Below are positions 22,632 through 30,397 of a stretch of 64,000 bases of DNA, in pieces. Numbering within the stretch: the first letter of the stretch is position 1; each line of letters opens with the position of its first letter. This DNA comes from Qipengyuania oceanensis. Lineage in GTDB: Bacteria > Pseudomonadota > Alphaproteobacteria > Sphingomonadales > Sphingomonadaceae. The translations under genes and the position numbers were made by a program. The stretch spans positions 744,001 through 808,000 of the forward strand of contig NZ_WTYN01000001.1 of the NCBI RefSeq assembly GCF_009827535.1. Reading direction: 5' to 3'. Below the pieces are notes generated by a model, which was not told the origin of the DNA, searched no databases, and worked only from the letters and a program-made list of their open reading frames with translations.

Positions 22632-23597
22632 TTACATGCGAGCGAGGCTGGCACCCCAGGTGAAGCCACCGCCCATGGCCTCGAACATCACCAGATCGCC
22701 CTTCCTGATCCGTCCGTCGGCGACCGCGGTATCGAGCGCGAGCGGGACCGAGGCGGCGGAAGTATTGGCGTGCCGATCGACGGTGACGATAACCTTGTTC
22801 TCTTCGATGCCGAGCTTGCGCGCGGTCGCATCGAGGATCCGCTTGTTCGCCTGGTGGGGCACGACCCAGTCGATCTCGTCGGCCGTGACACCTGCTTCGT
22901 CGAGCACTTCACCGAGCACCTCGGCGAGATTCACGACTGCGTGGCGGAACACCTCGCGTCCCTTCATCCGCAGCTTGCCGACTGTGCCGGTCGTCGATGG
23001 CCCCCCGTCGACATAGAGCAACTCGTTGTGCTGCCCGTCGGCATGGAGGCGGGAAGCGATGATGCCGGGTCCGTTCTCGGCCACGTCCTGCGCTTCCAGC
23101 ACCACGGCCCCGGCCCCGTCGCCGAAGAGGACGCAGGTGCCGCGATCTTCCCAGTCGAGGATCTTGCTGAATGTTTCCGCGCCGATCACCAGGGCCTTTG
23201 TCGCCATCCCGGTGCGCAGCAGCGAATCCGCCGTGGCGAGCGCGTAGAGAAACCCCGAGCACACGGCCGCGACATCGAAGGCGACGCCCCCGTTGCAGCC
23301 CAGTTCGTGCTGCACGATCGTGGCGGTCGCCGGAAAGGTCTGGTCCGGAGTCGCGGTCGCCAGCACGATCAGGCCGATGTCCTTCGCATCCACGCCTGCC
23401 GCTTTGAGCGCCTTGCGTGACGCCTCGACCGCCAGGCTGGAAGTCGTCTCGCCATCGCCCGCGATATAGCGCTGGGTGATTCCGGTCCGCTCTACGATCC
23501 ACTCGTCGCTGGTGTCGACCTTCGCCGCCAGCTCCTCGTTCGACATGCAATGTTTCGGCAGAGCCGAGCCGGTACCGGTTATCACCGAGCGGATCAT
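22632..23597 (-). CDS. fabH: Beta-ketoacyl-ACP synthase III
   Basis: 321 residues. It condenses acetyl-CoA with malonyl-ACP to start fatty acid synthesis. The catalytic triad is intact: Cys 113 ([10 protein letters not shown]), His 248 (PHQANKR) and Asn 278 (HANTSAAS). ATG 23597 overlaps the plsX stop by 4 bases. The pair plsX-fabH links initiation of fatty acid synthesis with phospholipid synthesis and is almost invariant in bacteria. Confidence 0.97.
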
Positions 23598-29000: not shown

Positions 29001-29660
29001 CTAGACCCGCCCGCCCTTCCACACGACCCTGCCGATGATCGCGATCTCGTCGAACGCGACCTCGACCGGAGGGTACGCCAGGTTCTGGCTCAGCAAAGTA
29101 AGCCTGCCCGGCCCCGACGATGCAAGCCGCTTGACCATCAGCGTGTCGCCCATGCGAACGACGTGTACCCCGTCGCGAAACGGGCGCGGCGTGCGATCCA
29201 CCAGGATTTCGTCCCCGTCGCGCAGCAGCGGTTCCATCGAATCGCCCTCCACCGTGATCGCCGACAACTGCGCGCCCTCCAGCCCCTGTTCGCGCAGCCA
29301 GCGGCGCGAGAAGCGGAACGCGTCGAACGCCTCCTCGCGCTCGGCAAGCGCACCCGGGCCTGCCGACGCGCCGAGCGGCAGGCGCCCCACGTCGACCCAT
29401 TCGGGCGCTGCATCTGCCGGAACATAGGAATTTCCCTCAGGCGCACCCAGTTCACGCTCGTCCACGCCGAAGAACTGCGCCAGCATCCGCCGGTCGCGTT
29501 CCTCCAGCCTGCGCGGCGAGCCCTTGCGAATGAATTGCTGGAGATAGGCCGCATTGCGCCCGAGCATGGCAGATAGCGAGGCCAGGCTCGCGCCATTTTC
29601 CTGCGACAATTCAAGCAATCGCTGTCGTTCGGGCTCGTTCTGCCAAACCTGTGCCGTCAT
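29001..29660 (-). CDS. S24-family self-cleaving repressor (CI/LexA-like)
   Basis: 219 residues. An N-terminal helix-turn-helix (about 12-66, SLASLSAMLGRNAAYLQQFI) is joined to a LexA/CI-type serine peptidase domain. The catalytic pair is Ser 141 (EGDSMEP) and Lys 177 (LMVKRL). An Ala-Gly bond at residues 100-101 (GASAGPG) lies 40 residues before the Ser, close to the spacing in CI and LexA, so autocleavage on RecA activation is plausible. Two matched inverted repeats overlie its promoter, implying autorepression. No phage genes surround it. It is probably not the cell's LexA, given the divergent small HTH partner. Confidence 0.9.
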   Translation of the reverse strand: MTAQVWQNEPERQRLLELSQENGASLASLSAMLGRNAAYLQQFIRKGSPRRLEERDRRMLAQFFGVDERELGAPEGNSYVPADAAPEWVDVGRLPLGASAGPGALAEREEAFDAFRFSRRWLREQGLEGAQLSAITVEGDSMEPLLRDGDEILVDRTPRPFRDGVHVVRMGDTLMVKRLASSGPGRLTLLSQNLAYPPVEVAFDEIAIIGRVVWKGGRV

Positions 29661-29740
29661 GCGCCTTCTCCTTCGCCCGGCATGGCCGACGGCGAGTTTA
29701 TCTCAACCCTCCGGATAAATACCGGGTTTCCCGAGAATAT

Positions 29741-29755
29741 TCCTATACCATAGGA
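29741..29755. promoter_or_regulatory. Operator-like inverted repeat O1
   Basis: TCCTA, five bases, TAGGA: a perfect repeat with arms identical to O2. On the minus strand it covers the TATAGG -10 box of the repressor promoter. Confidence 0.65.
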
Positions 29756-29769
29756 TTTTTCCTAGACAA
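29742..29769 (-). promoter_or_regulatory. Candidate promoter of the S24 repressor
   Basis: On the minus strand TTGTCT (29769-29764), 16-base spacer, TATAGG (29747-29742). The -10 box is the same as that proposed for rpmF. The ATG is 81 bases downstream. Both boxes sit inside the inverted repeats O1 and O2, so bound repressor would exclude RNA polymerase. Confidence 0.55.
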
Positions 29770-29775
29770 GTAGGA
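29760..29775. promoter_or_regulatory. Operator-like inverted repeat O2
   Basis: TCCTA, six bases, TAGGA, with centre about 19.5 base pairs from that of O1, close to two helical turns. It covers the TTGTCT -35 box of the repressor promoter. The flanking T-tracts are also shared with O1. Confidence 0.65.
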
Positions 29776-29844
29776 TTTGGACTGGAACGAATCAGGAACA
29801 CAACGTCGCACAGACATTCGATTCGTCCAACTGGGGAGCGCCAA

Positions 29845-30054
29845 ATGCTGATCCGATCCGTCGAGAAATTCCTTCGTACCTATGACATGCCCGCGACCAA
29901 ATTCGGGCGTCTGGCCGCGCACGATCCGCGGTTCGTCCTCGATCTAAGGATGGGGCGCATTCCGCGCCAGCAGACCGAGGCCCGGATCGTCGCTTTCATG
30001 GCCGGCTTCGAAGCCGCCGGTCAGCACAAGCGGGTGAGCGCAAATGTCGGTTGA
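29845..30054 (+). CDS. Small HTH-like protein divergent from the S24 repressor
   Basis: 69 residues. The core MPATKFGRLAAHDPRFVLDL followed by RMGRIPRQQTEARI looks like a shortened lambda-repressor-type helix-turn-helix, so it may be a Cro-like DNA-binding protein; this is my reading of the pattern and not a family match. ATG 29845 has GGGGAG about 7 bases upstream. It overlaps the next gene by 11 bases. Position and size suit an antagonist of the S24 repressor. Confidence 0.7.
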   Translation: MLIRSVEKFLRTYDMPATKFGRLAAHDPRFVLDLRMGRIPRQQTEARIVAFMAGFEAAGQHKRVSANVG

Positions 30055-30397
30055 GGCACACATCGGGCGCGCACCGCGCATTCGCAGAACCGCTGCCGAC
30101 CGGCTGCGCGAAGCAGTGCTGGCGCTTGCCCAGCATCGGGGACAGTTGATCGAACACCACGAAAAGCCGTGGGCCAGCATCACCTTTGCTGGTGCGCGGC
30201 ATACGCTCTCGCTGCTGTTCATGGGCGACGACGCAGTGGCAGCGGGCGAGGAACTGCTCGCCGCCCTGCCCGATCACGAGTTCGCGATCCCGGGCCAGCT
30301 GGTCGCGGATGCGAACGTCATCTCTGTCGAGCACCGGCTGCTGCCGACCCCGCGCATGGCGATTACCTGCGAGCTGTTGCTGTTAGAGGATGCCTAG
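30044..30397 (+). CDS. Hypothetical protein coupled to the small HTH gene
   Basis: 117 residues, no signal peptide or membrane helix. It starts at ATG 30044 inside the preceding gene, so translation is coupled. Visible stretches include WASITFAGARHTLSLLFMGD and LPDHEFAIPGQLVADANVIS, with an alternating strand pattern in the second half that suggests an alpha/beta fold. I recognise no family. Being coupled to the regulator, it is probably part of whatever response the S24 switch controls. Confidence 0.75.
   Translation: MSVEAHIGRAPRIRRTAADRLREAVLALAQHRGQLIEHHEKPWASITFAGARHTLSLLFMGDDAVAAGEELLAALPDHEFAIPGQLVADANVISVEHRLLPTPRMAITCELLLLEDA

Follow-up and report, generated by a model that had tools for sequence, protein, structure and literature searches.

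The repressors of lambda CI/Cro and DMS3-type phages stand divergent from a small HTH gene, with dyad operators between the two. In the RogA/GafYZ system, RogA is described as lacking the catalytic residues and GafY as resembling domain IV of DnaA in the available part of the source (PMC9632790), and homologues of gafA, annotated as DUF6456, occur in 196 of 208 genomes bearing a gene transfer agent (GTA) according to an excerpt of PMC9765227. The sequences GTTCN7GTTC and GAACN7GAAC are given as alphaproteobacterial LexA sites in the accessible portion of PMC3091678. The target choice of transposable phages can be mostly random, as stated in the section available of PMC5977238, and defences acting on tail assembly include Tab (PMC10884400) and Tai (PMC11364771), both as portrayed in extracts of these papers.

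Three-gene module and its conservation

The DNA analyzed here, referred to as the window, is a stretch of 64,000 nucleotides from Qipengyuania oceanensis. It contains a repressor gene (rep), a divergent gene for a 69-residue HTH-like protein (hth) and an overlapping gene for a 117-residue protein (p117), together called the module. The literature search found no paper on the module or on the insertion hotspot described below, and no match for the operator strings. The features of the module are the following:

29001-29660, minus strand: rep, S24 (CI/LexA-type) repressor of 219 residues, with A100-G101, S141 and K177
29741-29755, no strand assigned: second dyad in the intergenic region, upstream operator candidate, TCCTATACCATAGGA
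29759-29775, no strand assigned: predicted main operator, dyad CCTA-N6-TAGG, conserved motif, TTCCTAGACAAGTAGGA
29785-29799, plus strand: LexA-type box (alphaproteobacterial, GAAC-N7-GAAC), site predicted from the motif, GAACGAATCAGGAAC
29845-30054, plus strand: hth, predicted Cro/XRE-fold DNA-binding protein of 69 residues, from an AlphaFold model and its structural neighbours
30044-30397, plus strand: p117, predicted tail-terminator-fold protein of 117 residues, overlapping hth by 11 bases

The coordinates and reading frames of all three genes agree with those of the preliminary description, which had been made from the sequence alone. The rep product matches Pfam Peptidase_S24 (PF00717; E 1.1e-19, residues 98-213) and the PHROG repressor family phrog_4 (E 3.1e-35, residues 13-216). 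Its sole A-G bond, A100-G101, is the candidate cleavage site, and the catalytic Ser141 and Lys177 lie within GDSMEP and VKR, respectively; the peptidase domain, the A-G bond and the Ser/Lys pair are those of the self-cleaving S24 repressors (LexA/CI). These residues, already pointed out in the preliminary description, are kept across the family alignment (n = 143, window sequence included), with A100 in 140, G101 in 141, the A-G pair in 140, and S141 and K177 in 142 sequences each. The bond is lost in three loci (L010, L029 and L072), and L029 is also missing Ser and Lys. Relatives of rep with solved structures are UmuD, LexA and lambda CI, and the c repressors of Pseudomonas phages, such as the Mu-like DMS3, match it at 36%. 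The conserved autocleavage residues make a RecA-responsive switch plausible at the sequence level. The same genome encodes a second S24 repressor (G000:C2:227754-228356, L002), 35% identical to rep.

Of the 59 genomes searched from the order, 33 have hth at E <= 0.01, namely this genome, 31 of 34 other members of the family and 1 of 24 outside it. Searched together across Sphingomonadales, as the preliminary description had proposed, the three proteins are conserved as a unit: rep, hth and p117 occur in the same arrangement in 22 of 30 loci when the window proteins serve as queries. These loci (L003-L032) were found with hth and taken one per genome, this genome included; in L032 the contig end cuts off the repressor, and wider queries recover p117 in L019 and L021 too. 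Duplicate window loci, L001 and L002 were excluded from the counts, and wrong-strand ORFs from greedy picking were disregarded. Part of the named loci also have one of the downstream neighbours, hadh or cysS, close to the module, as vertical inheritance would predict. Two genomes (G317 and G348) retain hth-p117 with no repressor within the adjoining 1.5 kb. In loci L437 and L438, hth-p117 is present with no repressor within that distance, and in L438 the place of the repressor is taken by a gene resembling, by eye, a metallo-beta-lactamase-fold RNase.

The intergenic region between rep and hth has 184 bases and contains two dyads. Allowing up to 3 mismatches, the operator motif has 1 match in the window versus 0.01 expected. 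The exact pattern TTCCTANNNNNNTAGGA occurs once in the genome; with one mismatch it gives five further rows (one being the same site) versus 48 for the reversed control pattern. The single exact occurrence makes rep look like a local regulator, apparently with one strong target. In the 30 loci, which were not selected by operator, the 16-mer operator is exact in 16 and present with at most 2 mismatches in 21. The 21-base form TTTCCTAGACAAGTAGGAWWT is present in at least 120 named loci (those listed being L055-L174); module genes adjoin all of those listed, and 103 carry all three genes with window queries. Close upstream of the main operator, among the 119 listed named loci with enough upstream sequence, 45 have TAGGA and 55 have a TCCTA half-site, the latter 15-25 bases upstream.

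Taken by itself, the GAAC-N7-GAAC motif is about as frequent in the window as chance would give (3 against 1.99 expected). At 20-36 bases past the operator start, a LexA-type box is found in 43 of the 120 listed named loci versus 0.0 expected from shuffling. The other 77 have no box at the usual position despite the exact operator beside it, which suggests that SOS input was gained or lost along lineages. The window has the promoter box of a LexA regulon member at the sequence level, and the box together with the conserved S24 residues makes DNA-damage control plausible by two routes.

Predicted folds of hth and p117 and the proposed switch

No match of hth was found in Pfam, NCBIfam or PHROG. 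Its AlphaFold model, made with 49 sequences, is a four-helix HTH (pLDDT 92), which with the divergent layout bears out the HTH-like protein and overlapping 117-residue gene of the preliminary description. Its structural neighbours include, at Z 6.4, a designed DNA-binding protein and C.Kpn2I, at Z 6.0, P22 c2 and HigA, and at Z 5.6, the 434 repressor; all of them are below Z 8, the tool's own "safe" level. A divergent small HTH protein of the CI/Cro kind is thus indicated by the layout, the model and HTH neighbours at Z 5-6.

For p117, there was no family match below E 0.1 in Pfam, NCBIfam or PHROG. Its AlphaFold model (79 sequences, pLDDT 94) has the order alpha-beta-beta-alpha-beta-beta, and its top solved match in both Foldseek and VIA-align is 6tba_4A, a chain from a gene transfer agent virion (18% identity, Z 11.4, 2.5 A over 100 residues). 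It is followed by Listeria antigen B (Z 10.7), monocin (10.5) and the phage NF5 neck (10.3), and further matches include PilO (9.7), the T5 tail terminator (9.5), the SaPI1 neck (9.5) and lambda gpU (8.2); the scores of Listeria antigen B and of PilO, a non-phage protein, count against the switch reading favoured below. Among viral models (BFVD, E <= 0.001), 11 matches were found, six of them named tail completion or DUF3168 proteins. In profile searches, PF11367 (Tail_completion_gp17) is reached by 1 of 79 p117 family members (E 0.0013) and not by p117 of the window, hhalign of the p117 profile with sphingomonad PF11367 tail proteins was not significant (Prob 0.39, E 0.15), and among solved structures the p117 profile matched ribosomal L20 alone (E about 1). 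Against 1661 local ORFs, the top match outside p117 itself was a protein of a GTA-like cluster (E 0.1), which in turn matches PF11367. We conclude from the predicted model that p117 shares a common fold with phage tail terminators, any homology being putative.

The preliminary description had seen the layout of a lysogeny switch with no phage gene present; the layout stands, and the second part goes too far, given the tail-terminator fold predicted for p117. Its reading as a RecA-responsive switch gained from the CI/Cro layout, the S24 residues, the operator and the LexA-type box, which the window shares with about a third of the operator loci. The control of host functions that it had added finds no support, with a single exact operator in the genome and a phage tail fold for p117.

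A phage-like repressor and a tail-fold protein could also be what is left of a decayed prophage without function, and the neighbours scanned for families in the window (trkH, trkA and hadh) include no phage gene. The highly conserved operator and the reading frames kept across many genera speak against such a remnant, which is very improbable.

Another alternative, initially favoured from the layout of a repressor with two small genes, is that the module is the sphingomonad counterpart of RogA/GafYZ and switches a gene transfer agent. In 30 of 41 genomes searched there is a protein that resembles GTA gp15 (as named by eye), and all three hth-less genomes among G000-G034 (G011, G012 and G031) are without it. 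However, seven hth-bearing genomes of the same set have no gp15 either, and in the window's own genome, with its intact module, neither Phage_portal (PF04860) nor a gp15-like match was found; the absence of GTA_TIM (PF13547) there is uninformative, its cut-off having been reached in 0 of the 41 genomes. Rep keeps its catalytic residues, hth and p117 have no Pfam match, and gafA homologues are already described in most GTA-bearing genomes. The non-catalytic repressor, DnaA-domain-IV-like GafY and GTA cluster of RogA/GafYZ were not found with the module here, so this counterpart is now considered improbable.

The reading that we modestly favour is that of a chromosomally fixed, phage-derived switch of the CI/Cro type. 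In such a switch, rep would bind the conserved operator of the intergenic region and silence the hth-p117 operon, probably along with its own gene. DNA damage would lead to RecA-stimulated self-cleavage of rep at A100-G101 and lift the repression; in the box-bearing lineages, including this one, loss of LexA would relieve it as well. The hth protein would then serve as a partner, either Cro-like or activating. The output would be p117, whose targets are most likely phage particles or structures resembling them, and not metabolism. The loci that lack the box, the A-G bond or a nearby repressor, and the non-significant profile comparison of p117, count against this reading.

The hth-p117 part as a preferred insertion site of some Mu-like phages

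The 17-base operator was also found in 16 viral contigs. In 13 of these, module genes adjoin the operator and the junction with the phage end is readable in the contig or its whole record; the other three (L042, L046 and L054), which are AT-rich, carry no module gene and were taken as chance. The contigs had been considered as phage-owned copies of the switch, an explanation discarded because at the junctions the module is chromosomal, with a prophage inserted next to it or into it.

A Mu-type transposase domain is present in 15 of 18 records of the inserted elements. The annotated element, G062, encodes terminases, a portal and a MuB-like protein, and next to its transposase it has an S24 repressor of its own. 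The element ends begin TGTAGC and TGTG. Of the 10 module insertions for which both flanks are available, 8 show a 5-base duplication, the exceptions being G703 and G069. The transposase with a MuB-like protein, the TG/CA ends and the 5-bp duplication are those of Mu-like elements. The gene order of G062:C1 (40487 bp) looks unusual for a Mu-like phage, with transposase and repressor mid-element and tail and packaging genes toward opposite ends. Some of the Mu-like phages encode an hth-family protein themselves (G636 region, 23148-23318 of the joined stretch; G066, near 29155; G703 region, 29638-29841).

After merging records with the same junction, 18 distinct insertions in the module were obtained. 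Pairs counted once each were G298/G060, G163/G074, G636/G071, G063/G068, G061/G059 and 37834_13/37834_14, their sameness being inferred from identical junctions or sequence. The hth matches in other viral contigs (including L256, L257, L263, L265, L266, L269-L271, L275-L277 and L280-L291) were left out. Seven insertions lie between 10 bases upstream of hth and about its tenth codon (G026, G163, G298, G062, G067, IMG/VR 37834_13/14 and G072). In the other 11, the site is the end of hth or the early part of p117 (G636, G680, G703, G064, G068, G070, G066, G059, G069, G076 and L348). In G062, the insertion is within the fourth codon of hth with the duplication AGCAA, so that the operator and repressor flank one end of the element, and p117 with most of hth flanks the other. 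None of the 18 lies in the repressor, within these searches, which are not an exhaustive list, and the operator is spared as well. Both phage orientations were seen. The distances from the operator (n = 15) are 74, 86, 88, 109, 111, 118, 292, 310, 311, 313, 313, 315, 317, 317 and 366 bases, forming clusters of seven at 310-317 and six at 74-118; G072, G076 and L348 are not included, and G163 and G298 were measured through their twin records G074 and G060.

The frequency of these insertions was estimated from the transposase, which was found in 6 of 397 family genomes, in one further genome of an order sample of 396 (two others being repeats) and in one further genome each of genus samples of 80 and 94, giving nine genomes in total. 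In six of the nine (G026, G163, G298, G636, G680 and G703), the phage lies between the repressor and p117; in the family sample alone, this is 3 of 6. If the target is taken as about 600 bases of a 3.5 Mb genome, chance would give at least 6 of 9 with a probability of about 2e-21, and at least 3 of 6 (family sample) with one of about 1e-10. In the remaining three genomes, the phage is elsewhere: in G140 between genes read by eye as thyA and a glycosyltransferase, and in G317 and G348 at or within a DUF2793-like gene of a GTA-like cluster (this gene and the GTA gp13/gp15 around it being named by eye), with a single phage end on the contig of G348. The sites near 1469340 of G317:C1 and on G348:C142, from two species of one genus, form a second possible hotspot at the DUF2793-like gene. 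The transposase query came from G062, a phage sitting in the module, and alignment A5, used for the order and genus samples, was made from ten phages, mostly in the module, so the rate is valid for their relatives and not for transposable phages at large; the genus samples focused on genera in which module insertions had been seen before. Another 80 portal-bearing viral loci, most without a module part, count neither way (IMG/VR trims host flanks and many of the hosts are unknown). The window's own genome has no match to the G062-derived transposase at E <= 1e-60.

One explanation for the hotspot is directed transposition, in which a DNA feature or a bound protein, e.g., the module's repressor or hth, guides the phage machinery to the locus, which would be a landing site whatever the operon does. 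The concentration of six of the nine phages in a target of about 600 bases, the bunching at two distances from the operator and the occurrence of both orientations fit it, and there is a precedent in P. aeruginosa phage Ab30, with hotspots 54-59 bases from a motif among the rows listed in the part of PMC5977238 available. On the other side, three of the nine phages are elsewhere, G140 with an intact module, the rate is limited to relatives of a query phage itself in the module, and no motif common to all sites was demonstrated. An operator shared by phage and host repressors was also considered and set aside: in five phage records, CCTA-N4-7-TAGG is absent apart from the module's own, which leaves tethering by a phage repressor unsupported. 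Directed transposition is a serious possibility, if still short of probable, both in its guidance and in its independence from what the operon does.

Selection offers a different explanation, that hth-p117 harms a resident phage, e.g., as an SOS-released poison of tail assembly, and that surviving lysogens are enriched for disabling insertions. In each of the 18, the phage breaks hth or p117 or separates them from the side of the operator. Of the three phages outside the module, two hit another phage-like gene, that of the GTA-like cluster (by eye). Both findings agree with selection. The predicted tail-terminator fold of p117 would agree with it, and tail assembly is a known defence target, as the extracts on Tab and Tai cited above describe. 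Loss of function should, however, scatter insertions over some 540 bases of hth and p117, and two short stretches are seen instead; G140 carries the phage with an intact module, and insertions upstream of hth need not end expression. The insertions are bunched more closely than mere loss of function would call for, which leans toward a target preference, yet only slightly; selection is less likely than not, and nearly as likely as directed transposition.

The two explanations can be combined, tentatively and as an unlikely whole: the Mu-like group would home by directed transposition to two short stretches of the operon of one host switch, sparing repressor and operator, and the prophage would take over or disable an SOS-controlled operon of phage origin whose p117 would otherwise interfere with tails. 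If this were true, one host switch would be both a defence output and a landing platform, and the arms race would be legible in the insertion sites. A suspected orphan lysogeny switch has become a testable family-wide CI-type circuit with a defined operator, occurring once in this genome, together with a natural record of phages inserting in exactly this circuit. It provides a way to ask why some transposable phages favour one locus and whether a chromosomal tail-fold protein is an anti-phage effector.

Comparison with known systems

Tab and Tai block phage tail assembly, and their likeness to p117 is by analogy only, set side by side by description; Tab is prophage-encoded, unlike p117, for which an anti-tail activity is putative. 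The Ab30/2P1 hotspots of Pseudomonas aeruginosa likewise belong to transposable phages and lie near a conserved sequence. Those hotspots adjoin repeated BIME elements (42 sites, 5% of events, in the part of the source available); here, by contrast, one regulatory locus accounts for 6 of the 9 genomic prophages in the group.

RogA/GafYZ, the GTA control of Caulobacter, resembles the module in having a repressor of S24 architecture over a two-gene operon. RogA is, however, non-catalytic and GafY is DnaA-like, and the module is present in a genome with no detected GTA portal or gp15.

The closest kind to the module is the CI/Cro switch of temperate phages. With lambda CI/Cro and the DMS3-type c repressors it shares an S24 repressor with A-G, Ser and Lys, a divergent HTH gene and dyad operators. 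Unlike those phage switches, the module is chromosomal and present in most genomes of a bacterial family, with a single operator locus in the window's genome, a downstream gene with a predicted tail-terminator fold and a LexA-type box in about a third of the listed operator loci.
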